From NCBI RefSeq assembly GCF_024204645.1, contig NZ_CP100351.1, positions 2,878,001-2,942,000 of the forward strand: a stretch of DNA of 64,000 nucleotides, written 5' to 3'. The notes under the pieces were generated by a model that worked only from the letters and a program-made list of their open reading frames with translations, was not told the DNA's origin and did not search any database. This document shows positions 50,742 through 63,424 of this stretch, piece after piece. The translations under genes and the position numbers were made by a program. Every line of letters starts with the position of its first letter. Position 1 is the first letter of the stretch. Origin of the DNA: Desulfomicrobium sp. ZS1 (GTDB lineage Bacteria; Desulfobacterota; Desulfovibrionia; Desulfovibrionales; Desulfomicrobiaceae).

Positions 50742-51197
50742 TCAGAACCGCAGTTCAAATCCTTTTTCGGCCAGATCGTCCATGACCTGGTCGACATTCT
50801 CCTGCAGGGCGTTACGTCCTGCCTCAAAACGCTCCTGATCCCAAATCTCGAATTTCCGTCCCACCCCGGCCAGGACGATGTCTTTCTGCAGGCCCGCGTA
50901 ATTGCGCAGATGCGGCGGAATAAGAATCCGCCCCTGCTTGTCGAGGGTCACCTCGGCGGCGCCGGAGATAAAAAAGCGATGGAAATCCCGAACCTTGCGA
51001 TCGGCCATATTCAACTTTGAAAAACTCTGTTCAATGATTTCCCATTCTGGCAGTGGGTAGGCGGCAACACAATCATCGAAATTGGTCAGCACAAGCTTGC
51101 CGTCCGGAGAATTGGCGAACACCTCGTCGCGAAATTCCGGGGGCAGCATGAGCCGTCCCTTGGGATCTTGCGTACGTTGTGAATGCCCTCTGAACAT
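50742..51197 (-). CDS. mraZ: Transcriptional regulator MraZ
   Basis: This 151-residue AbrB-fold protein has two swapped-hairpin halves: FRGHSQRTQDPKGRLMLPPE and EVTLDKQGRILIPPHLRNYA. It binds direct repeats in its own promoter and regulates the division cluster. A good GGAG site precedes the ATG, and three AGTGG repeats lie just upstream. It is the first gene of the minus-strand cluster that runs to the radical SAM gene. Confidence 0.98.
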   Translation of the reverse strand: MFRGHSQRTQDPKGRLMLPPEFRDEVFANSPDGKLVLTNFDDCVAAYPLPEWEIIEQSFSKLNMADRKVRDFHRFFISGAAEVTLDKQGRILIPPHLRNYAGLQKDIVLAGVGRKFEIWDQERFEAGRNALQENVDQVMDDLAEKGFELRF

Positions 51198-51249: not shown

Positions 51250-51768
51250 TGCATCTCTTGGGGAGTCAAGCCATTCCTCCATTTTTTACGGATTTGCTTT
51301 CTAAAAAAAACTTTGCGCCCACGCCAATTCCGCACCGTCAAAAACCACCCCTGCGCCCCGGACAACCCTAACCGAGGGCAGCTTTCACCCCCAACCGCGA
51401 CGACCAAAAGACAACTCCTTGAAACGACATATCTTTGCCCTTATTCGCCACGCCTTTGCCAAAAAACAGGGCTTTTCTGAACAAAACATCGATACGCTCA
51501 CAAACTTCATTTTGACGGCTTCATTTCCTTGACTCTCTATTTTGAGAGGCATATCCCCGGGAGTGGATACGATAACGTATAGCCTCCCAGCTTAATAACA
51601 TGTAATTTTTGATATAGTTTTCAAATTTTTATCTATCATAAAATTTAAAAAACAGTATTATCATGCAATTATTTCTGCATGATGATACAACCATGATCTT
51701 TCTCAACGTATCATTTAAATAATGTAAAATAGAGAAAAAAAAGTGATTTCTTTCACTTTACCAGAAAA
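51250..51768. other. AT-rich divergent promoter region
   Basis: The gap between mraZ and the hydrogenase-like operon is about 570 bases and turns strongly AT-rich after 51480. No gene is supported. The notable site is an exact inverted repeat (separate entry). A TTGATATAGTTTTCAA stretch near 51610 resembles a loose CRP/FNR half-site pair, but it is not convincing. Confidence 0.4.
51660..51683 (+). promoter_or_regulatory. Inverted repeat, candidate operator of the hydrogenase-like operon
   Basis: ATCATGCA and TGCATGAT form an exact 8-base inverted repeat with an 8-base AT spacer, about 85 bases before the first gene of the operon. It has no T-run and sits in AT-rich DNA, so a protein-binding site is more likely than a terminator. 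Confidence 0.5.
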
Positions 51769-53703
51769 ATGGAACTAGATTTCTTACTGACATGCGCATT
51801 GGGAGCAACACTCATTGGCTTGGGCACAAGCCACGTATCTCCCCGCTGGTGGATCATTTCCATTCTGACAGCATCGACGTGCGCGTTTTGGGCTGCCGCC
51901 AAAACCCTGTCCAGCGGTTCCGTCTGGGAATGGCACAGCGGCTGGACCCTTGGCGGCGAGCACGTATTTATGCGTCTGGATGCGATCAGCGCCTTTTTTC
52001 TGCTGCTCCTGGCCGTCGTTGGAGCCTCGGGAGCTTTTTACAGCCGGACATATTGGCCGCAAAAAAAACACCCCCGCTCCGCAAGGCAAAGCCGACTGTG
52101 GTGGAGCGCCATGCTGGCCAGCATGGGAATGGTGCTGACCCAGTCCAACGGGCTGCACTTTCTTTTTGCCTGGGAATCCTTTGCCTTAAGCGCCTATTTC
52201 CTGGTCACCCTGGAACGCGACAACCCCAAAGTCCGGGCTGCGGGCCGACTCTACCTCGTCGCATCCCATGCCGGAACACTGGCGCTTTTCGGTTTTTTCA
52301 CGTCACTAGCCGCGCAAACGGGCAGCTGGGAACTTGGTCCCATGACATCGCAAACCTCCCTGGCCCCGCTCTTCTGGCTCGCCCTGCTGGGCTTCGGCAT
52401 CAAGGCAGGCATCTTTCCGCTGCACATCTGGCTGCCCTCGGCACACGCAAACGCCCCCAGCCATGTTTCGGCCATCATGTCCGGCGTGGCCATCAAAATG
52501 GGAATTTACGGGCTGGTTCGCTTCAGCTCCTGGCTTCCCCTACCCGCAGGCGCGGGCTGGGTCGTGGCGGGCCTCGGCTGCATCAGCGCCGTGCTGGGAG
52601 TCGCCTTCGCCCTGGGACAGCATGACTTGAAGCGTCTGCTGGCCTATCACAGCGTGGAAAACATCGGCATCATCCTCATCGGGCTGGGCTTCGCCATGAT
52701 CGCCCTGGACCAGGGCCGCCCGGAGTGGGGCCTACTGGCCCTGAGCGGCGGACTGCTGCATGTCTGGAATCACGGGCTCTTCAAGGCGTTGCTTTTCCTG
52801 GGCGCGGGAGCCGTGCTGCACTCCACCGGTACACGGGAAATGAGCCGCCTGGGAGGACTCTGGAAGACCATGCCCTGGACGGCCGCGCTCTTCACCCTCG
52901 GAGCCATGGCCATCAGCGGCCTGCCTCCGCTGAACGGATTCGTCAGCGAATGGCTGATCTTTTCCGGGCTGTTCGACGCCGGCAGGCTGAGGACCGCCGC
53001 ATCCCTGGGCGCGGTACCCGCCGCCATCCTGCTGGGCGTGACCGGAGCTCTGGCCCTGGCCTGTTTCGTCAAGGTCTGCGGAGTGGTCTTTTTGGGTGCC
53101 CCCCGTTCAGAGGATGCGGCAAACGCTCACGAATGCAGCACAGGCATGCGCGCGGCCATGGGCGTACTGGCCTTGGGGTGCCTGATCATCGGCCTGGCTC
53201 CCGCGTTTTTCTGGCCTACGCTACTGCGGGTTGCGGGCGTCTGGGCGCAGACGGCCCCGGACAGCGGCATTGCCAACCATCTCGCCCCCCTGGGAACAGC
53301 CCATGCGATCCTGGCCCTGGCGATCCTGGCCACGGCAGCGGCCGCCATCGCCCTGCTGCGCGGCCGGCAAACACGCCGCCAGACCTGGGATTGCGGCTAC
53401 CGCGCACCGACTGCGCGCATGCAATACACCGCCGGTTCTTTTGCAGGCATCATCACCGCATGGTTCGGCTGGATTCTCCGGCCCTCCGTGCATGCCAGCC
53501 TGCCCGAAGACATCTTTCCGGCCAGGTCCAGCCTGGAAAGCCACACGCCCGAGACGGTTCTGGAACAGGTGGTGACCCCGGCCGCCAATTCCTTCCTCCG
53601 TCTTGCGGACTTTGCGCGAACGTTCCAGCACGGACGCGTCCAATCATATCTCTTGTATCTGTGCGCGGCCCTCGTCATGTTATCCATCGCCGCCATCCTT
53701 TGA
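51769..53703 (+). CDS. HyfB/NuoL-like antiporter subunit, first copy
   Basis: This 644-residue multi-helix protein of the Mrp-antiporter/NuoL-HyfB family would translocate ions in the membrane arm. Key charged residues of the channel are present: Glu136 in LFAWESFALSAYF, Lys212 in GFGIKAGIFPLHIW, His232 and Lys243 in APSHVSAIMSGVAIKMG, and Lys339 in NHGLFKALLF. The C-terminal stretch WDCGYRAPTARMQYTAGSFA is typical of hydrogenase-4 component B. It opens an eight-gene run. The ATG has no clear Shine-Dalgarno sequence. A second copy lies two genes downstream. Confidence 0.93.
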   Translation: MELDFLLTCALGATLIGLGTSHVSPRWWIISILTASTCAFWAAAKTLSSGSVWEWHSGWTLGGEHVFMRLDAISAFFLLLLAVVGASGAFYSRTYWPQKKHPRSARQSRLWWSAMLASMGMVLTQSNGLHFLFAWESFALSAYFLVTLERDNPKVRAAGRLYLVASHAGTLALFGFFTSLAAQTGSWELGPMTSQTSLAPLFWLALLGFGIKAGIFPLHIWLPSAHANAPSHVSAIMSGVAIKMGIYGLVRFSSWLPLPAGAGWVVAGLGCISAVLGVAFALGQHDLKRLLAYHSVENIGIILIGLGFAMIALDQGRPEWGLLALSGGLLHVWNHGLFKALLFLGAGAVLHSTGTREMSRLGGLWKTMPWTAALFTLGAMAISGLPPLNGFVSEWLIFSGLFDAGRLRTAASLGAVPAAILLGVTGALALACFVKVCGVVFLGAPRSEDAANAHECSTGMRAAMGVLALGCLIIGLAPAFFWPTLLRVAGVWAQTAPDSGIANHLAPLGTAHAILALAILATAAAAIALLRGRQTRRQTWDCGYRAPTARMQYTAGSFAGIITAWFGWILRPSVHASLPEDIFPARSSLESHTPETVLEQVVTPAANSFLRLADFARTFQHGRVQSYLLYLCAALVMLSIAAIL

Positions 53704-53718
53704 ACCGAGTAAACAGCC

Positions 53719-54453
53719 ATGTCCTCAAAAAACCGGACCGCAAAAAATCCCATGTACATTAATCTTATTCAAATAGCCGAATCCTTTGGAGTTTCCGAGC
53801 ACGTCATCATGGAATGGGTGCGCAAGGAAGGCATGCCCCATGTCCATGACCGTGACCGCATCCTCTTCGAGCGCTCCCAAGTCATGGACTGGGCGGCCAG
53901 CCACGGGCTCGGCGGTCAGGGCGGATTCCTCTCGGAACCTGCGCCCTCGCTGGCCAATTCCCGGGAACTGGTCACGCTTCTGCGTCGGGGAGGAATCTGG
54001 CACGACGTGAACACGGCCGACCTTGACAGTGTGTTCGAACGCATCGTGCGCAATCTGCCCGGCCTGCCCGCGGCCGTATCGAACATGCTCGCGCAGCGCA
54101 TCCTGGCCCCCGGCGGCATTACCGCAGCCCCCGTGGGCGCCGGGTTCGCCCTTCCCCATCCGGCCATGCGGGTCGCCTTGGGCGAGGCGTGCGCGCTGGT
54201 AGCGCTCATCGAACTGAACTCGGCCTGGAGCGCGGTCCAGCCCCCCGATGGCATCCCCGTCACCCGTCTGCTCTTTTTCATTTCGCCGACTCCCCGCCTG
54301 CATGTGAACATGCTCGGACTTTTGGCGCGCAGCATCGCTTCCGGCATGCTGAATCAGGCGCTGGACAACGGCGCGGACGACGAAACGCTGCTGCGGATCT
54401 TTGCCGAATGTGCAGGCAAGGACGTTCCGCGAGCAGATGGAGCGCCTCTATGA
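53719..54453 (+). CDS. Helix-turn-helix protein with PTS EIIA (fructose/Ntr type) domain, inside the hydrogenase-like operon
   Basis: This 244-residue protein has an N-terminal excisionase/MerR-like helix-turn-helix (YINLIQIAESFGVSEHVIME; WVRKEGMPHVHDRDRILF), a short linker, then an EIIA type-2 domain from about residue 80. The phosphorylatable His147 sits in GAGFALPHPAMRV, the family active-site context. Such domains accept phosphate from HPr-like proteins and often act as regulators. No sugar-transport gene is present. It lies between the two HyfB genes and its stop overlaps the second as ATGA, so it is made with the complex. A sensor or regulator of the operon is inferred. Confidence 0.85.
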   Translation: MSSKNRTAKNPMYINLIQIAESFGVSEHVIMEWVRKEGMPHVHDRDRILFERSQVMDWAASHGLGGQGGFLSEPAPSLANSRELVTLLRRGGIWHDVNTADLDSVFERIVRNLPGLPAAVSNMLAQRILAPGGITAAPVGAGFALPHPAMRVALGEACALVALIELNSAWSAVQPPDGIPVTRLLFFISPTPRLHVNMLGLLARSIASGMLNQALDNGADDETLLRIFAECAGKDVPRADGAPL

Positions 54454-56390
54454 TCGCCGCGTTCCTGAGCATTTCCGGTCTGAGTCTGCTCCTGGCCATG
54501 TGCGTGGGCCGCACGCATCCGCGCATCTGGCTGGGACTCAGCGCCGCCTCGGCCCTGAGCGGACTGTATGCGGCCCTGCTCGTACTCATCACGACGCAGG
54601 CGTGGCTCTGGCACGGCGATTTCGATCTGGGCGGAGAAACTCCTTTTTTGCGTCTTGACGGGATCAGCGCTCTTTTTCTCGTTCTGGTCTGCCTGGTCGG
54701 CGGCCTGGGCGCGCTGTATTCCCATGAATACTGGTCCGACCAGCATCACCCGCGCTCAGCACCGAAAGGACGCTGCTGGTGGAGCGCCCTGACGTTAAGC
54801 ATGGGCTTGGTCCTGACCTGCGCCAACGGACTGCATTTTCTTTTCGCCTGGGAAGCCTTTGCCTTAAGCGCCTATTTTCTCATCACCCTGGACCACGACA
54901 GCACGGCAGGACGCAAGGCGGGATGGCTTTATCTGGCGGCCTCCCACGCCGGAACCATGGCCCTCTTCGCCTTTTTCGCAGCGCTGGCCGCCCGCACCGG
55001 AACCTGGGAGCTCGGGCCGGTGCATGCCCAGGCCGGGCTGGCCCCGCTTTTCTGGCTCGTCTTGTTCGGATTCGGGGTCAAGGCAGGCATGTTTCCCCTG
55101 CACATCTGGCTACCCTCGGCCCACGCAGGCGCCCCCAGCCACGTTTCGGCCATCATGTCCGCCGTGGCCATCAAGATGGGCGTCTACGGCATCGTGCGTT
55201 TCAGCGGCTGGCTGCCCATGCCCGCCAACGCCGGCTGGGTGTTGCTCGGCATCGGATGTCTGAGCGCGATCCTCGGCATCGCCTTCGCCCTGGCCCAGAA
55301 CGACATCAAACGCCTGCTGGCCTACTGCTCGGTGGAAAACGTCGGCATCATCCTCATCGGCCTTGGCCTCGCCGTGCTGGCCGTTCAGCACGGTCAGCCC
55401 GTGTGGGGCAAGGCCGCCCTGGCCGGGACCTTCCTGCACATCATCAATCACGGCATCTTCAAATCCTTGATCTTTTTCGGCGCGGGGTCGGTGCTTCATG
55501 CCACAGGCACCCGGGACATGAGCCGACTGGGCGGATTGTGGAAAGTCATGCCCTGGACCGCGACCCTGTTCGCCATAGGCGCCATGGCCGTGTCCGGGCT
55601 GCCGCCCCTGAACGGATTTGTCGGTGAATGGGCGATCTACCAGGGTCTCTTGCGGGCAGTGGCCCAGAAAGGACCCGCTGTCGGAGCGCTGCCTGCGGTC
55701 ATCGTGCTCGCCGGAGCCGGAGCCATGGCCCTGGCCGCCTTCGCCAAATCGGTCGGCATTATCTTTCTCGGGGCACCGCGAAGCAAACCCGCCGCGCACG
55801 CCGTCGAATGCGGCTGGTTCATGCGCGCGCCCATGCTGGTGCTGGTCACGATCATGATCGCCATCGGCCTGCTGCCGGGTCTTTTCTTCCGTCCGGCCAT
55901 GGGCGTTGTCACGGCCTGGGCCCCGCAATGGGCCATGACCGACCCGCTCCTTGCGACCCGGACTCTGGGCGCCACGCACACGCTCCTGCTCTGCGCCCTG
56001 CTCGCAGGCGGATTCCTGATACTGCGCAAGGTCCGAGCCAACGGGACACGGCCGGGGCTTACCTGGGACTGCGGCTACGCGGCCCCGACCGCGCACATGC
56101 AGTACAGCAGCGGCTCCTTTGCCGGCATCGCGCGCGGATGGTTTTTCTGGCTGCTTCAGCCCGAAATGACGATTCAGCGGGTGCGGGGCTTTTTTCCAGG
56201 CAAAGCCCGGGTCCTGGAGCGCATTCCGGAAACGGTCCTGGAGAAAATCATCGGACCGGGCGCGCAGGCAATCTCCTTCGCGGCCGACGGTGCCCGAAAA
56301 ATGCAGCACGGACGCCTGCATCTCTATATTCTGTATGTTTTCCTCGGGGTCACGGCTCTGGGACTCATGGTTCTTCTGGGAGGGATATAA
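54450..56390 (+). CDS. HyfB/NuoL-like antiporter subunit, second copy
   Basis: This 646-residue paralogue of the protein at 51.8 kb is alike along its whole length. The same functional residues occur: Glu in LFAWEAFALSAYF, Lys in GFGVKAGMFPLHIW, His and Lys in APSHVSAIMSAVAIKMG, and Lys in NHGIFKSLIFFGAG. It also ends with WDCGYAAPTAHMQYSSGSFA and a tail helix. The start overlaps the EIIA gene stop, and its own stop shares a base with the next ATG (TAATG). Having two HyfB-type subunits in one operon is uncommon and suggests two ion channels of this type in the complex. Confidence 0.93.
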   Translation: MIAAFLSISGLSLLLAMCVGRTHPRIWLGLSAASALSGLYAALLVLITTQAWLWHGDFDLGGETPFLRLDGISALFLVLVCLVGGLGALYSHEYWSDQHHPRSAPKGRCWWSALTLSMGLVLTCANGLHFLFAWEAFALSAYFLITLDHDSTAGRKAGWLYLAASHAGTMALFAFFAALAARTGTWELGPVHAQAGLAPLFWLVLFGFGVKAGMFPLHIWLPSAHAGAPSHVSAIMSAVAIKMGVYGIVRFSGWLPMPANAGWVLLGIGCLSAILGIAFALAQNDIKRLLAYCSVENVGIILIGLGLAVLAVQHGQPVWGKAALAGTFLHIINHGIFKSLIFFGAGSVLHATGTRDMSRLGGLWKVMPWTATLFAIGAMAVSGLPPLNGFVGEWAIYQGLLRAVAQKGPAVGALPAVIVLAGAGAMALAAFAKSVGIIFLGAPRSKPAAHAVECGWFMRAPMLVLVTIMIAIGLLPGLFFRPAMGVVTAWAPQWAMTDPLLATRTLGATHTLLLCALLAGGFLILRKVRANGTRPGLTWDCGYAAPTAHMQYSSGSFAGIARGWFFWLLQPEMTIQRVRGFFPGKARVLERIPETVLEKIIGPGAQAISFAADGARKMQHGRLHLYILYVFLGVTALGLMVLLGGI

Positions 56391-57295
56391 TGCCCCTGTA
56401 CATTGACATTGCGCTGCGCCTCCTGTGCTGGCTGCTCCTTGCCCCGCTTCTCCCGGGCATCATCAACAAGGTCAAGGCCTGGGTGGCCGGGCGGCAAGGC
56501 CCGCCCGTACTGCAATTGTATTACGATCTGGCGCGGCTGTGGCGCAAAGGCGTGGTCTTAAGCACCCTGGCCTCGCCCGGTTTCATCATTGCCCCGGCCG
56601 TGGCCTGGACCGCCGTGGTCACGGCGGCCCTGCTGCTGCCCCTGGCCGGTGCGGGCACGGCGTTCTCCTTTGACGGGGACGTTCTGCTGCTGGTCTACCT
56701 GCTGGCCCTGGCCCGCTTCTGCACGGCCTGGGGAGCGATGGAGACGGGCTCCGCCTTCGAGGGCATGGGCGCGGCCCGCGAAGTCAGCTTCGCCGTCCTG
56801 GCAGAAATCGGCATCATCACCGCTATCCTGACCCTGGTCGTGCAATCGGGCAGCATCGCCCTCTCATCCATGTTTGAACCCCTCTCCGGGCCGGGTGCGG
56901 CGCTTCTGGCCGTAGGACTTTTTATCATCCTGCTGGCCGAAAACTGCCGGGTCCCGTTTGACGACCCGAATACCCACCTCGAACTGACCATGATTCACGA
57001 AGTCATGGTCCTGGATCACAGCGGCCCCCCTCTGGCCATGATCCTGCACGGGGCGGCGGTAAAACTGCTGCTCTTCGCCGTCTTTCTGGCGCAGGCGGTG
57101 CTGCCGCTCTCAGAACTGCCGCTCCTGGCCTCGGTCGCGGCCCTGGCGTTAAGCGTGCTGCTGGTCACCGTGGCCGTGGGGCTGATTGAATCCCTGACCG
57201 CGCGCCTGGCTTTTAAAAGGGTCCCGCTGCTCCTGACCATCGGTTTTCTGTTTTGCCTTTTCCCTCTGCTTTTGACCTGGATGGGTGATTTATGA
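56390..57295 (+). CDS. HyfC/NuoH-like membrane subunit
   Basis: This 301-residue protein of about eight helices is of the NuoH/HycD/HyfC family, which joins the redox arm to the ion-pumping arm. Recognisable parts are KVKAWVAGRQGPPVLQLYYD, GSAFEGMGAAREVSFAVLAE and AENCRVPFDDPNTHLELTMI, with the conserved Glu and Arg residues of the quinone- or hydrogen-side cavity. It starts in the stop of the second HyfB gene and overlaps the next gene by four bases. Confidence 0.94.
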   Translation: MPLYIDIALRLLCWLLLAPLLPGIINKVKAWVAGRQGPPVLQLYYDLARLWRKGVVLSTLASPGFIIAPAVAWTAVVTAALLLPLAGAGTAFSFDGDVLLLVYLLALARFCTAWGAMETGSAFEGMGAAREVSFAVLAEIGIITAILTLVVQSGSIALSSMFEPLSGPGAALLAVGLFIILLAENCRVPFDDPNTHLELTMIHEVMVLDHSGPPLAMILHGAAVKLLLFAVFLAQAVLPLSELPLLASVAALALSVLLVTVAVGLIESLTARLAFKRVPLLLTIGFLFCLFPLLLTWMGDL

Positions 57296-57936
57296 ACGAC
57301 ACGCTGAACCTTCTGATCGGCCTGGCCATGGGCTTCAACCTTCTGGCGCTGGGCACCAGCCGCCTGCCCGTCCTGATCCGGGCGGTGGCCATACAGGGCG
57401 TGCTGCTGGGCCTTTTGCCCCTGGTGCTCGAAGCGCATGCCCTGGACTGGCGCCTCGTCCTCATTACCCTGGCCACCGTGGCCGGCAAGGGCGTGCTCAT
57501 TCCCTTCATGCTTATCCGCGCCATGCGCGCCGCCAACATCGCCCGGGAACTTGAGCCCTACATCGGCTACATCCCGTCCCTGCTTCTCGGCGCGGCCGGA
57601 ACCATCGCCGCCGTGGCCCTGACCCGCTACCTGCCACTTTTGCCCGAACACGCAGGAAACCTGCATGTTCCGGGGGCCATGGCGCTCATTCTGACCGGCT
57701 TCATCCTGCTCATCGGACGGACCAAGGCCATCTCCCAGGTCTGCGGCTACCTGATCCTGGAAAACGGCATTTATCTCGCTGGCCTGCTGCTCATCAGGTC
57801 CACCCCGATCCTGGTGGAATTCGGCATCCTGCTCGACGTCACCGTCGGCATCTTCGTCATCGGCATCATCGTTGACCGCATCCAAAGGGCCTTCGATTCT
57901 CTGGACACCCGCAAACTCACGGCGCTGCACGAATGA
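57292..57936 (+). CDS. HyfE-like membrane subunit
   Basis: This 214-residue protein with six or seven helices is of the hydrogenase-4 component E type, related to NuoK/MrpC in its second half. Typical parts are LLIGLAMGFNLLALGTSRLP and LTGFILLIGRTKAISQVCGY, then the glutamate in LILENGIYLAGLLL and LLDVTVGIFVIGIIVDRIQ. The ATG overlaps the previous stop (ATGA) and its own stop overlaps the next start. HyfE marks the complex as hydrogenase-4 or related rather than simple Ech. Confidence 0.92.
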   Translation: MNDTLNLLIGLAMGFNLLALGTSRLPVLIRAVAIQGVLLGLLPLVLEAHALDWRLVLITLATVAGKGVLIPFMLIRAMRAANIARELEPYIGYIPSLLLGAAGTIAAVALTRYLPLLPEHAGNLHVPGAMALILTGFILLIGRTKAISQVCGYLILENGIYLAGLLLIRSTPILVEFGILLDVTVGIFVIGIIVDRIQRAFDSLDTRKLTALHE

Positions 57937-59369
57937 ACGCATACCTGCTCATCATCATCCCTCTGATCGGGGCCCTGCTGGCCGCACTCTGGCCGTCCGC
58001 GAAAAGCCGCCCCTATTTCCTGCCCGCGGTCGGACTGGCCCACACCATCCTGTGTTTTCTGCTCCTGGCAAAGCCTATAGCCGTGGACCCGGCGGCCTGG
58101 CTGGCCTTTGATCCTCTGGCGCGCGCCATTTTGCCCGGCGTGTCCCTGCTTTTTCTGCTCTGCGGCTGCTATGCGGTGAGCTATCTGCAGCTCAAGGATC
58201 AGGACAACCGGGTCTTTGTCCCGGCCCTGCTGCTGGTCCTTGGGCTTTTGAGCGCCGGGCATCAGGCCAGGCATCTGGGCATATTGTGGATCGCGACCGA
58301 GGCCGTGACCCTGGCCTGCGTGCCTCTCATTCACTTCAACGGCACCCCGAAATCCTTCGAGGCAACCTGGAAATACCTGCTCGTTGGGGGCACGGGCATC
58401 GCGCTGTCGCTTTTAGGCTCCATTTGCCTTGGCTACGCGTCCCTGCATGGAGGCGGGAGCGGGGACATCACCTTTGCGGCACTGCTTGAGCACGGTCCAA
58501 GTCTCTCCCGCGTCTGGGTCCTGACCGCCTGGGTGCTGCTCCTGGTCGGCTACGGCACCAAGATGGGCCTGGCGCCCATGCACACCTGGAAACCCGACGC
58601 CTACGGGGAAAGCCCGGGCATCGTCGGCGCGCTGCTGGCAGGCGGGGTCACGTCCGTGGCCTTCATGGCCCTCTTGCGCATCAAATCCGTGGTCGATGCC
58701 GCCGGGGAGGGCGTTGTGGCCAGCCGCACCCTGCTCGCCATCGGCCTCTTCTCGACGCTGGTAGCGGCGCTTTTCCTGCTGCGCACCCGCGACTTCAAAC
58801 GCATGCTCGCCTACTCCAGCATCGAACACATGGGCATCCTGTGCATCGCCACCTCCTTTGGCGGCGCCGGTCTCTGGGCGGCCCTTTTTCACGTCTGGAG
58901 CAACGGTCTGACCAAGGGCGCGCTCTTCCTGAGCGCGGGCAACCTGCAACGGGCCGCGGACTCGTCCTCCATAGACGAAGTGCGCGGCATGTCCAAAATT
59001 ATGCCGCGCACCTCTATTCTTTTTGTGGTGGGCATGTTCGCCATCACCGCCTGCCCGCCTTTCGGACCGTTCTTCAGCGAACTGCTTGTCATCCGCACCG
59101 GCCTTGGCGCGGGACACGGATGGGCCATCGGCCTCTTCCTGACCTGCCTGCTGCTGGCCTTTTTCGGAATCTCGCGCATCGTTTTCGCCGTTGTCGACGG
59201 CCGTCCGCGGCTCTATAAACCAAGAGCCGCACTGCGCAAGGAATCGGCCGGGCTGATCCTGCCCCCCCTCATCCTGCTGGCCGCGTCGCTCTGGCTCGGG
59301 CTTTTCACCCCGGACATCCTGAGAGATGCCTGGTCCGCCGCAGTCCTTCAACTCTCCCCAATGCCATGA
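57933..59369 (+). CDS. HyfF/NuoN-like antiporter subunit
   Basis: This 478-residue ion-translocating subunit of the hydrogenase-4 component F type carries Glu123 in WIATEAVTLACVPL, Lys210 in GYGTKMGLAPMHTWKPDAYG, the DFKRMLAYSSIEHMGIL turn and Lys in SNGLTKGALFLSAG. These are the charged residues used for proton or sodium movement. It is the third antiporter-like subunit of the operon. Start and stop overlap both neighbours by four bases. Confidence 0.94.
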   Translation: MNAYLLIIIPLIGALLAALWPSAKSRPYFLPAVGLAHTILCFLLLAKPIAVDPAAWLAFDPLARAILPGVSLLFLLCGCYAVSYLQLKDQDNRVFVPALLLVLGLLSAGHQARHLGILWIATEAVTLACVPLIHFNGTPKSFEATWKYLLVGGTGIALSLLGSICLGYASLHGGGSGDITFAALLEHGPSLSRVWVLTAWVLLLVGYGTKMGLAPMHTWKPDAYGESPGIVGALLAGGVTSVAFMALLRIKSVVDAAGEGVVASRTLLAIGLFSTLVAALFLLRTRDFKRMLAYSSIEHMGILCIATSFGGAGLWAALFHVWSNGLTKGALFLSAGNLQRAADSSSIDEVRGMSKIMPRTSILFVVGMFAITACPPFGPFFSELLVIRTGLGAGHGWAIGLFLTCLLLAFFGISRIVFAVVDGRPRLYKPRAALRKESAGLILPPLILLAASLWLGLFTPDILRDAWSAAVLQLSPMP

Positions 59370-60847
59370 ACACAATCGCTCCATTTTTCTCATTCACCAA
59401 CGCATCCAGAATCTCGTGGGCCTCGGTTCCGGTCTTCTCGGTAACCAAGCTCGTCCGCCTGACGGACGAAATGCTTGAATCCGGAGCACGCCTGTGCTCG
59501 TGGTTCGGCGTGCCCGATCATGACGGCACGATCCTGGTCGCCGTACTGGCGCTGGATTCCGAAAGCATCCTGGGCGTGGCCCGGAGCGAACCCATCAGCG
59601 GTTCGTACCCGTCCCTCACCCCAAAACACCCCCAGGCTCATCTCTTCGAGCGCGAAGTCTGGGAACAGCATGGACTGGTTCCCGTCGGGCACCCGTGGCT
59701 CAAACCCGTGCGCCACACTTTCGAAAATGCCCCGGCCAACGCCCCGTTCTTCCTGGTCGAAGGCGGAGAGATGCATGAGGTGGCCGTGGGACCGGTGCAC
59801 GCAGGAGTCATCGAGCCGGGACATTTCCGCTTTCAGTGCGCAGGCGAAGAAGTTCTGCATCTGGAGATCGCGCTTGGCTACCAGCACCGGGGCATCGAAG
59901 AAGCCCTGCCCGGCGGCCCCTACCCGGCGACCATGAGCCAGATGGAGGCCTTGGCCGGGGACACGAGCATCGCCCACGCCACGGCATACGCCTCCGTCAT
60001 GGAAGCCCTGGCCGGAATGGAAGCGCCCTTGCGCGCGCAGTGGTTGCGGGCCATCGCCCTGGAACTTGAACGCCTGGCCAACCACACCGGCGACATGGGC
60101 GCCCTGGCCATGGATGTGGCCTTTTTGCCCACCTCGGCGGCATGCGGAAAAATCAGGGGGGATTTTCTGAACCTGACGGCGCTCATGTGCGGCAACCGCT
60201 TCGGCCGCGGGCTGATCCGTCCCGGCGGATGCAGGCATGATCTGGAAGAAGAGCGGCTGATAACCCTGACCGAAAGGCTCAAAGCCCACATGGCCGACGT
60301 GGAACAGGCCATGGCCTGGTTCTGGGATGCGGCCTCGGTGCGGGTGCGTTTCCGCAATGTCGGCGTCGTGCATCCTTCCCAGGCCACCGACATCGGACTG
60401 GTCGGCCCGGCGGCGCGGGCCTGCGGACTGGTTCGCGACGTGCGCTTCGACCATCCGGCGGGCTGGCACCGCTTTTCCCACTCACCGGTTGCGGTCTGGC
60501 CCAGTGGGGACATTTTCGCCCGTGCCCGGGTCCGCTCCCTGGAAATCCAGCGTTCCGGCCGTTACCTCTTCGATCAGCTGGCAGCGCCCGTGGACGGAGA
60601 TATAACGGCTGTCCTGTCCGCTCCGCAGCCGGAGTCCATGACCGTGGCCCTGGTCGAAGGCTGGCGCGGCGAGGTATGCCACGTCGCCCTGACCGACCAT
60701 TTCGGCCGTTTTCGCAGCTACAAGATCACGGACCCATCCTTCCACAACTGGACCGGACTGGCCCTGTCTCTGCGCGGCACGGCAGTCTCGGACTTTCCCA
60801 TCTGCAACAAAAGCTTCAACCTGTCCTACTGCGGCTTTGACCTCTAA
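59366..60847 (+). CDS. HyfG-like NuoC-NuoD fusion (large subunit) without [NiFe] ligands
   Basis: This 493-residue protein has a short NuoC-like start (residues 1-115; PQAHLFEREVWEQHG) and a NuoD/hydrogenase large-subunit body (HLEIALGYQHRGIEEAL; LELERLANHTGDMGALA; FRFQCAGEEV). In true group 4 hydrogenases two CxxC motifs bind nickel and iron. Here the first site (residues 195-206) reads ALAGDTSIAHAT with no Cys, and the C-terminal site reads NKSFNLSYCGFDL, where the DPCxxC pattern is lost. No [NiFe] centre can form, so the complex is a hydrogenase relative with another reaction. Confidence 0.92.
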   Translation: MNTIAPFFSFTNASRISWASVPVFSVTKLVRLTDEMLESGARLCSWFGVPDHDGTILVAVLALDSESILGVARSEPISGSYPSLTPKHPQAHLFEREVWEQHGLVPVGHPWLKPVRHTFENAPANAPFFLVEGGEMHEVAVGPVHAGVIEPGHFRFQCAGEEVLHLEIALGYQHRGIEEALPGGPYPATMSQMEALAGDTSIAHATAYASVMEALAGMEAPLRAQWLRAIALELERLANHTGDMGALAMDVAFLPTSAACGKIRGDFLNLTALMCGNRFGRGLIRPGGCRHDLEEERLITLTERLKAHMADVEQAMAWFWDAASVRVRFRNVGVVHPSQATDIGLVGPAARACGLVRDVRFDHPAGWHRFSHSPVAVWPSGDIFARARVRSLEIQRSGRYLFDQLAAPVDGDITAVLSAPQPESMTVALVEGWRGEVCHVALTDHFGRFRSYKITDPSFHNWTGLALSLRGTAVSDFPICNKSFNLSYCGFDL

Positions 60848-60859
60848 GGGGGAACGCGC

Positions 60860-61651
60860 ATGTATATATTTGATACCATCTTGAACCGGATGCGGCGCGG
60901 CTGCCAGACCATACCGTACCCCAAAGGCCCGGCCCCGGCCCTGCCCGACCGCCACGGCGGAGCCTTGCGCCTGGATGCCTCCCTCTGCCCCGAAGGCTGC
61001 GCCCAGTGCCAGGGCGTCTGCCCCACCAGGGCCATCACCCTGGAGCCGGGCCGGGGAGCGCGCCTTGATCTGGGCCGCTGCCTGTTCTGCGGGGACTGTG
61101 TGGCGGCTTGCCCGCATGGAGCCATCACCGAAACAAATGATCACCGTTTGGCCACGCGCCGCCGCGAGGACCTGATTCTTGGCGAAACGGGTGCGGAAGA
61201 ATTGCGGTTGGCCGCAGCCCTGGACAAAAAAATGAAAAGCCTGCTCGGCCGGTCTCTGCGCCTGCGGCAGGTCAGCGCGGGCGGATGCGGTGCCTGCGAG
61301 GCGGACATCAACGTGCTCGGCACCATCGGCTGGGACCTGGGGCGTTTTGGCATCCAGTACGTGGCCTCGCCGCGCCATGCCGACGGCGTGCTCATCACCG
61401 GCCCCGTGACCAAAGGCATGGAGCTGGCCCTGCAGAAAACCTGGGCGGCCGTGCCCGAACCGCGCATCGCCATCGCGCTCGGCTCCTGCGCCATCAGCGG
61501 CGGCCCCTTTATCGGCCATTCCCAGCACAACGGCGGAGCAGACCCCATCATCCCCATAGACCTCTACATCCCCGGCTGCCCCCCGCATCCGCTGACCATC
61601 CTGGACGGGTTCCTGCGCCTGCTGGGACGACTGCCCAAACACAACCTGTAG
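60860..61651 (+). CDS. Fused ferredoxin (NuoI-like) and NuoB/HyfI-like subunit
   Basis: This 263-residue electron-transfer subunit carries two 4Fe-4S clusters in its first third, with Cys43, 47, 50 and 54 (CPEGCAQCQGVCP) and Cys74, 77, 80 and 84 (CLFCGDCVAACP). From about residue 130 it is a small subunit of the NuoB/HycG type, with the N2-type cluster ligands Cys143 and 146 (AGGCGACEADI), Cys210 (GSCAISGG) and Cys240 (PGCPPHP). In E. coli these parts are two proteins (HycF and HycG). All 12 ligands are intact although the partner large subunit lacks nickel ligands. It ends the operon, 12 bases after the large subunit. Confidence 0.92.
   Translation: MYIFDTILNRMRRGCQTIPYPKGPAPALPDRHGGALRLDASLCPEGCAQCQGVCPTRAITLEPGRGARLDLGRCLFCGDCVAACPHGAITETNDHRLATRRREDLILGETGAEELRLAAALDKKMKSLLGRSLRLRQVSAGGCGACEADINVLGTIGWDLGRFGIQYVASPRHADGVLITGPVTKGMELALQKTWAAVPEPRIAIALGSCAISGGPFIGHSQHNGGADPIIPIDLYIPGCPPHPLTILDGFLRLLGRLPKHNL

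Positions 61652-61774: not shown

Positions 61775-63424
<1,650 letters not shown>

Follow-up and report, generated by a model that had tools for sequence, protein, structure and literature searches.

A nickel-free Ehr-type complex in Desulfomicrobium sp. ZS1, with a conserved rebuilt cavity and a putative role as a ferredoxin-linked ion pump

What can a hydrogenase-4-like complex do when its large subunit has lost the nickel site? The question is posed by an operon at positions 51769–61651 of a 64,000-nt stretch of Desulfomicrobium sp. ZS1 (contig NZ_CP100351.1, positions 2,878,001 to 2,942,000; hereafter the window), whose genome is a single contig of 3,867,579 bases. The operon, which we refer to as ehr (energy-converting-hydrogenase-related, Ehr), comprises eight genes, all on the plus strand and all with open frames. 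Five of its seven junctions overlap by 1–4 bases, and at the other two the genes are separated by 15 and 12 bases, in line with the co-directional, mostly overlapping genes described in an earlier note made from the letters of the window. The seven products named in that note are also found here, but the eighth gene (53719–54453), which it counted without naming, encodes a helix-turn-helix (HTH)–EIIA regulator that it missed.

The large subunit, EhrL, was aligned as one of 169 distinct relatives together with E. coli HycE, HyfG and NuoCD and a large subunit of the formate hydrogenlyase (FHL) type (L166). These relatives are not independent, since all were retrieved by their similarity to the window protein or to its alignment, and many are from Verrucomicrobia; incomplete frames, proteins of at most 300 aa in the first set, seven duplicates, L152–L155 and L115–L151 were left out before the rows were counted. 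The positions of HycE Cys241, Cys244, Cys531 and Cys534 are held in EhrL by Ala197, Thr200, Ser487 and Gly490, while Cys489 adjoins a ligand site and occupies none. Both the RxCGxC and the DPCxxC ligand motifs of [NiFe] group 4 enzymes and hydrogenase-4 are absent, and the protein terminates directly after the DPCxxC-equivalent motif, the C-terminal tail of HycE and HyfG being missing. All four ligand cysteines are gone in 167 of the 169 relatives and one is kept in the other two; HycE, HyfG and L166 have four. Site 1 (HycE Cys241) is Ala in 139 rows, Ser in 27, Cys in 2 and Gly in 1; site 2 (Cys244) is Thr in 128, Ser in 31 and Ala in 10; site 3 (Cys531) is Ser in 169/169; and site 4 (Cys534) is Gly in 167 and Glu in 2. 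Six plasmid-borne large subunits from five named records, aligned later, carry none of the four ligands (6/6). The alignment with HycE, HyfG and NuoCD confirms the claim of the earlier note that all four [NiFe] ligands are lost. Its comparison with complex I NuoD holds only in part: the four cysteines are gone there too, but the quinone residues of complex I are also absent from EhrL.

By these comparisons, ligand loss is a property of the family, neither a sequencing error nor decay, because the ligands are replaced in the same constant way among the relatives (A/S, T/S/A, S, G) and the ratio of nonsynonymous to synonymous substitution rates (dN/dS) is low. Across 27 gene comparisons with four relatives, one of which gave only three genes, dN/dS ranged from 0.075 to 0.366 (EhrL, 0.092–0.134), and a faulty contig may lie behind the top value (HyfB2 against L032); judging from these ratios, the ehr genes are under purifying selection. 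A sequencing error or an alternative frame restoring the cysteine pairs was tested and rejected: no frame break was found, and error is excluded because relatives that are 63–95% identical carry the same pattern. The reading of EhrL as a genuine hydrogenase, with either unusual ligands or a different frame, would draw on HycE of FHL, which is the best single sequence match of EhrL and also the best structural match of its model (7z0s_E, followed by complex I; predicted local distance difference test score, pLDDT, 81.5 and predicted template modelling score, pTM, 0.85 overall). With no ligand in 167 of 169 rows, no maturation tail and no frame break, however, we regard this as most improbable. 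We also find it highly improbable that the complex is a decaying, non-functional relic, the view taken for the Geobacter Ehr in the accessible text of PMC13194489. Nickel-based H2 chemistry is indeed not expected, but the low dN/dS, the 68 EhrL columns conserved in at least 98% of the 169 rows and the synteny of the ehr locus, which is kept across phyla, speak against it.

The cavity that once held nickel appears to have been rebuilt. Seventeen of the 68 conserved EhrL columns, each in 166–169 rows, are unlike both FHL and NuoD: V141, A146, G147, I149, F156, D199, D243, L268, G381, W433, D456, F477, N481, K482, F484, S487 and G490. Retained from FHL are Glu150 (168/169), which aligns with MbhL Glu21, His153 (167/169), His204 (167/169), His240 (169/169) and Arg434 (169/169), the last of which we take to be the second-shell arginine of [NiFe] enzymes. 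His204 is not universal, with Tyr or Phe at that position in four of the six plasmid proteins (judged by eye). We present as new that the predicted cavity keeps a hydrogenase-type proximal cluster, Glu150 and Arg434, is without both complex I quinone residues, and would have gained the nearly invariant Asp199, Asp243, Trp433, Asp456, Asn481 and Lys482; the literature was not searched for the residue map as such.

According to the available text of PMC7684303, the quinone-headgroup residues of complex I are Nqo4 His38 and Tyr87. Their counterparts in EhrL are Ile149 (166/169) and Gly198 (169/169), which bears on a tentative alternative, namely that the complex is a complex I-like ferredoxin:quinone oxidoreductase with menaquinone as acceptor, bound otherwise than in complex I. 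The overall plan, the three pumps and the NuoH-like anchor are as in complex I, and plasmids, including some from soil bacteria, encode nickel-free relatives; some of the host genera we take to be aerobic, and there a quinone would be the natural acceptor. Against this stand the two replaced residues and the proximal cluster of the small subunit, EhrS, which reads CGAC with hydrogenase-type CxxC spacing in place of the CC pair of complex I.

A second non-hydrogenase precedent is Pyrococcus MBS/Mbx, like Ehr a group 4 relative that pumps ions, although pumping is only predicted here. In the part of PMC7684303 available, MBS is described as keeping two of the four cysteines, as having lost the equivalent of MbhL Glu21 and as having a shortened proximal-cluster loop that opens one iron; it, too, is without His38/Tyr87 equivalents. 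A sulfane-sulfur reductase with chemistry at such an open iron would suit an organism for which sulfur compounds are presumably natural. EhrL, in contrast, keeps no cysteine, retains Glu150 and has a partner cluster with hydrogenase-like spacing, by which alone loop length was judged, and we consider this reading very improbable.

The remaining subunits would supply an electron path and ion pumps. EhrS has eight ferredoxin-type and four NuoB-type cysteines, each in 101–109 of 109 rows, which bears out the intact 4Fe-4S chain proposed earlier. In the HyfC-like anchor, 17 charged or His positions are conserved in at least 72 of 73 rows. The Glu of transmembrane helix (TM) 5, the Lys of TM7 and the Glu of TM12 of the NuoM-type pump, presumably the pumping residues, are all present in HyfB1, HyfB2 and HyfF (the subunit we take to be called EhrD), and the same is true of 12/12 homologues. 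The three ion-channel subunits of the earlier note are thus supported, and the retention of this Glu/Lys/Glu set in all three predicted pump subunits is presented as new.

The complex fits membership in the known Ehr group. It has a group 4-homologous large subunit without Ni-Fe cysteines and, when compared with published descriptions, the expected set of two NuoL/HyfB-like, HyfC-like, HyfE-like, large and small subunits; the resemblance to Ehr that had been pointed out holds on both counts. Nickel loss, Fe-S chain, pumps and Ehr affinity all stand, then, whereas the unusualness of the complex was overstated, as Ehr has already been described. The usual sources on Ehr are reportedly Coppi 2005 and Marreiros 2013. 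In the literature as far as accessible, Ehr is described in Geobacter, Riflemargulisbacteria, Desulfotomaculum, Nitrospira, Methylacidiphilum, Verrucomicrobia and ammonia-oxidising archaea, its role is termed unknown or uninvestigated, and HydDB is said to have been trained to exclude Ehr from hydrogenases. An EhrL with all four cysteines is also reported there for Desulfotomaculum ruminis, and therefore the name Ehr does not always mean cysteine-free.

By published description, the only basis of this comparison, the Geobacter sulfurreducens Ehr (ehrA-1, A-2, B, C, L and S; GSU0739–0745; PMC7894505, PMC13194489) resembles the window in its two NuoL/HyfB-like, FHL-subunit-4-like, HyfE-like, large and small subunits and in the lack of NiFe ligands. 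The HyfF-like subunit present here is not named, and the HTH–EIIA gene not mentioned, in the Geobacter descriptions available. In a scan of named genomes, no record titled Geobacter was among the best 80 of 239 matches. With FHL and hydrogenase-4 (HycE, HyfG), the complex has in common the fold and sequence of the large subunit, the CxxC proximal cluster and the HyfB/C/E/F arm, but it differs in having no nickel ligands, no maturation tail, a ferredoxin–NuoB fusion and no formate dehydrogenase in the operon. It is like complex I (NuoCD, NuoB, NuoH, NuoL/M/N) in the absence of nickel ligands, in its pumping residues and in its NuoH-like anchor, and unlike it in the missing His38/Tyr87 equivalents, the CxxC cluster and the lack of an NADH module (NuoEFG) among the eight operon genes.

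A partnership with formate dehydrogenase has been advanced for other Ehr complexes. An FDH–Ehr complex is proposed for Riflemargulisbacteria in the accessible text of PMC6349859, and for Geobacter it is hinted at in that of PMC7894505, where the abundance of every Ehr subunit was higher on formate than under conditions with hydrogen and the authors suggest H2 formation from formate. Here, no formate dehydrogenase gene is present among the eight operon genes (the search was not extended to the rest of the genome), and H2 production would be unexpected without nickel ligands; we therefore think such a partnership unlikely for the window.

The regulator matches HTH_17 and PTS_EIIA_2 (PTS, phosphotransferase system), each below the Pfam cut-off. 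The top structural matches of its AlphaFold model (mean pLDDT 87.4) are PtsN (Foldseek E 9.3e-6). VIA-align, run for the EIIA model only, matched it to PtsN 3urr with Z 14.8 and a root-mean-square deviation of 2.7 over 143 residues, its rows covering residues 76–244, so the HTH part is barely tested. The next matches are scaffolds based on EIIA and anion-exchanger cytosolic domains, and the fold alone is uninformative on function. The phosphorylatable histidine of the EIIA fold, His147, is present in 62/62 complete rows longer than 200 aa. Fold and phospho-His are common to this protein and EIIA(Ntr)/PtsN, but the window protein carries an N-terminal HTH fusion and is encoded within a redox-pump operon. 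In the rest of the genome, a search found a single HPr and a single ordinary EIIA-2 protein; the HTH–EIIA protein of the window itself escapes the EIIA-2 search.

For loci in which 6 kb or more of the sequence upstream of EhrL was available, we counted the HTH–EIIA gene if it lay within 10 kb; the loci were picked by EhrL, not by EIIA, and a few share one genome. The gene lies near 85 of 106 type-1 loci: 3/3 in Desulfomicrobium, 52/54 in Verrucomicrobia and companions, 29/33 in other Desulfobacterota and 1/16 in other Desulfovibrionales. It was found at none of nine loci of other kinds (L152–L155 and L162–L166: selenium-type, further Ehr-like types and FHL). In the available text of the PTS(Ntr) review PMC13104625, the known role of this system is control of K+ and C/N balance, and the words "hydrogenase" and "NADH" are absent. 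We found no published link between Ehr and HTH–EIIA, which is weak evidence of absence, as subscription literature was outside the search; on the basis of these counts, the gene as a frequent companion of type-1 ehr loci would be new. In some Verrucomicrobia, a second, more distant HTH–EIIA gene (24–28% identical) lies just 5′ of the first HyfB (L038:1651-2355, L082:3548-4246, L083 from 3530 and L107:1601-2308), so that one pump gene is flanked by two such regulators.

Taking these observations together, we propose that the complex is probably a ferredoxin-linked, redox-driven ion pump with an acceptor other than H2. Its peripheral arm has cysteine sets for three predicted [4Fe-4S] clusters, two in the ferredoxin part and one in the NuoB-like part, on an FHL-like large subunit, and the NuoH-like anchor would connect it to three antiporter-like subunits in which the set of pumping residues is complete. 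Electrons would come from a low-potential carrier, probably ferredoxin, and pass along the three clusters to a small substrate bound in the rebuilt pocket. This substrate may be protonated through Glu150, and the energy released would drive translocation of H+ or Na+. As acceptor, we expect neither protons on nickel nor a quinone in the classical complex I pose; a quinone bound in a different pose is conceivable, as is some other small oxidant. HTH–EIIA, phosphorylated at His147 by a PTS relay, may control the operon or the complex.

Several points weigh against this proposal. Conservation cannot separate forward from reverse operation, and no electron donor or acceptor gene is present in the operon. 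The EhrL model has pLDDT below 50 at residues 115–173 and 471–493, and the latter stretch holds two of the ex-ligand sites. The regulator gene is also not obligatory, given its near-absence from the other Desulfovibrionales loci and its absence from all five plasmid loci. A more specific version of the proposal, which we consider doubtful though conceivable, is that type-1 Ehr is a PTS-gated redox pump with a new nickel-free catalytic pocket formed by Asp199, Asp243, Trp433, Asp456, Asn481, Lys482 and Ser487 with the kept Glu150 and Arg434. Its small substrate would be neither H2, sulfane sulfur nor a classically bound quinone, and phosphoenolpyruvate or nitrogen status would act on synthesis or activity through the dedicated HTH–EIIA(Ntr) protein.

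Upstream of the operon, we noticed a conserved element (Table 1). Its 26-base core (51529–51554) occurs once in the genome at up to 3 mismatches and is present in 11 of 15 other Desulfomicrobium genomes (0–3 mismatches), adjoining the first ehr gene in 11/11 of these loci. Judged by EhrL, ehr is carried by 11 of the 15 genomes, ten of which have the element; the sole carrier without it is G005, whose EhrL lies 154 bases from a contig end, and both the element and a fragment of HyfB1 are present in G008 (63% complete). The element is absent from all three ehr-less Desulfomicrobium genomes (93–99% complete), each of which has mraZ, and is therefore unlikely to be an mraZ promoter. In one ehr-less case (L249), a different gene set, including a SulP-like gene, lies beside mraZ. 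Rfam gave one match in the intergenic region far below the gathering score, which we took as chance, and a sigma-70 scan found two sites, the element not among them, against 1.0 (standard deviation 0.9) in shuffles. The RNA fold of the element has a z of −2.72, with a second stem that is not conserved in all relatives. We suggest, as a new observation, that this unique element marks the ehr operon.

Among 394 genomes drawn evenly as a phylum sample, 137 reach E 1e-55 or better against the family alignment, and the low end of these matches includes genuine hydrogenase and NuoD-type proteins; among the matches listed, 71 in 70 genomes exceed 590 bits, the level of the window type. In a quick tree of 84 rows, the 12 rows from Desulfomicrobium group as a single clade (SH-aLRT 100) within a 36-row clade (100) whose other members are labelled Verrucomicrobia, including one Gemmatimonadetes-titled, one Kapaibacterium-titled and some untitled records. 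They stand apart from 18 other Desulfovibrionales rows, the same family included. A constraint uniting all 30 Desulfovibrionales rows was rejected by the approximately unbiased (AU) test (p-AU 0.0009), which used taxonomic groups but was run after the tree was seen and with a program warning of long branches. This tree, which we present as new, points to horizontal transfer, most simply into Desulfomicrobium.

Nickel-free Ehr-like large subunits are also found on plasmids of Variovorax, Rhodococcus, Rhizobium, Paraburkholderia and Allomeiothermus (L229–L233), the five records aligned out of 238 plasmid records matching the window protein (104 with at least 80% coverage). On Paraburkholderia pBN1, HPr and spermidine synthases are neighbours of the Ehr-like locus. 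In L096, L097, L102, L107, L060, L037, L093, L156–L159 and the Variovorax plasmid L229, genes for a type-1 complex adjoin those for another nickel-free Ehr complex, whose large subunit is about 36% identical to that of type 1. L164 and L165 carry a third Ehr-like large-subunit type without the four ligands (ERFSG(T/S)S..AHS), ending in SFGLSNAECDR and TFGLSNAECDR, respectively.

The neighbourhood of verrucomicrobial loci raises the idea that the complex energises or couples to a SulP transporter as an aid to uptake of an anion, such as bicarbonate. Of 51 loci, nearly all verrucomicrobial, with more than 1.9 kb of upstream sequence, 13 have a gene of a close SulP subfamily as the nearest upstream neighbour in the same orientation (for example, L092:2072-3853 and L108:2385-4220). 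No SulP gene lies beside the window operon, however, the nearest in the genome being about 72 kb away, and none is labelled in the 56 loci L156–L211; SulP was rejected as a fixed partner, and we judge such coupling very unlikely.

Excluded from the alignment, L152–L155 hold a group 4 hydrogenase-like operon in whose large-subunit gene an in-frame TGA stands in place of each cysteine of the first nickel-ligand pair (ERI-U-GI-U-GYIHS; 6512-6501, minus strand, in L152), whereas DPCFSC is intact. Its product is a possible double-selenocysteine [NiFe] hydrogenase. SelB was above cut-off in all four genomes (G253, G236, G144 and G108) and in two others examined. A 19-base CACAGTACGTGTTACTGTG follows the second TGA in 4/4 loci and forms a hairpin in 3/4 when folded from that TGA; a tRNA scan of seven loci, made with selenocysteine in mind, found none, which says little. 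A literature search on this point listed a single paper, a review on cofactor assembly. The Desulfomicrobium sp. ZS1 genome itself encodes, outside the window, the large subunit of a NiFeSe-type hydrogenase with a single TGA in frame (G000:C1:2267625-2268650). An RnfC-like protein, below its cut-off, is also present in this genome.

The operon is flanked by genes that we take from their translations to be mraZ (50742–51197, minus strand) and groEL (61775–63412, minus strand). Above the Pfam cut-offs were Proton_antipo_M (three proteins), NADHdh, Complex1_49kDa with Complex1_30kDa, and Fer4-type with Oxidored_q6. Oxidored_q2 and the NCBIfam hydrogenase-4 membrane subunit in the HyfE-like protein were both below cut-off, as were the NCBIfam HyfB/HyfF assignments.

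Table 1. Features of the ehr locus, in window coordinates
Feature	Position	Strand	Basis
Conserved upstream element TTGACTCnCnATTTTGAGAGGCATAT...GATAAC, putative promoter/operator of the operon	51524–51576	+	Conservation; function and direction putative
HyfB1/EhrA-like proton pump subunit, 644 aa	51769–53703	+	Proton_antipo_M, 171.8 bits; Glu136, Lys212, Glu394
HTH (excisionase-like) and PTS EIIA(Ntr)-like regulator, 244 aa	53719–54453	+	Profile matches, PtsN fold; His147 is the expected phospho-site
HyfB2/EhrA-like proton pump subunit, 646 aa	54450–56390	+	Proton_antipo_M; Glu135, Lys211, Glu393
HyfC/NuoH-like membrane anchor (EhrB-like), 301 aa	56390–57295	+	NADHdh, 97.3 bits
HyfE-like membrane subunit (EhrC-like), 214 aa	57292–57936	+	Matches below curated cut-offs
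HyfF-like proton pump subunit, 478 aa	57933–59369	+	Proton_antipo_M; Glu123, Lys210, Glu383
Large subunit EhrL (NuoC-NuoD/HyfG-like), 493 aa, without [NiFe] ligands	59366–60847	+	Pfam, alignment, fold match
Former first Cys pair, Ala197-Gly198-Asp199-Thr200	59954–59965	+	Alignment
Former second Cys pair, Ser487-Tyr488-Cys489-Gly490	60824–60835	+	Alignment
Small subunit EhrS, 2x[4Fe-4S] ferredoxin part and NuoB/HyfI-like domain, 263 aa	60860–61651	+	Profiles, Cys conservation

Ehr has been reported from many phyla with its role unexplained. The residue map indicates what the cavity is not (a nickel site, a classical quinone site or an MBS site) and yields testable residues, and through the HTH–EIIA partner one may learn under which conditions Ehr is made. 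Were the gated version true, a phosphotransferase relay would be wired directly to a complex I-type pump. In this genome, Ehr may carry energy conservation from ferredoxin, because EhrL is the only complex I-type large subunit that we found there.

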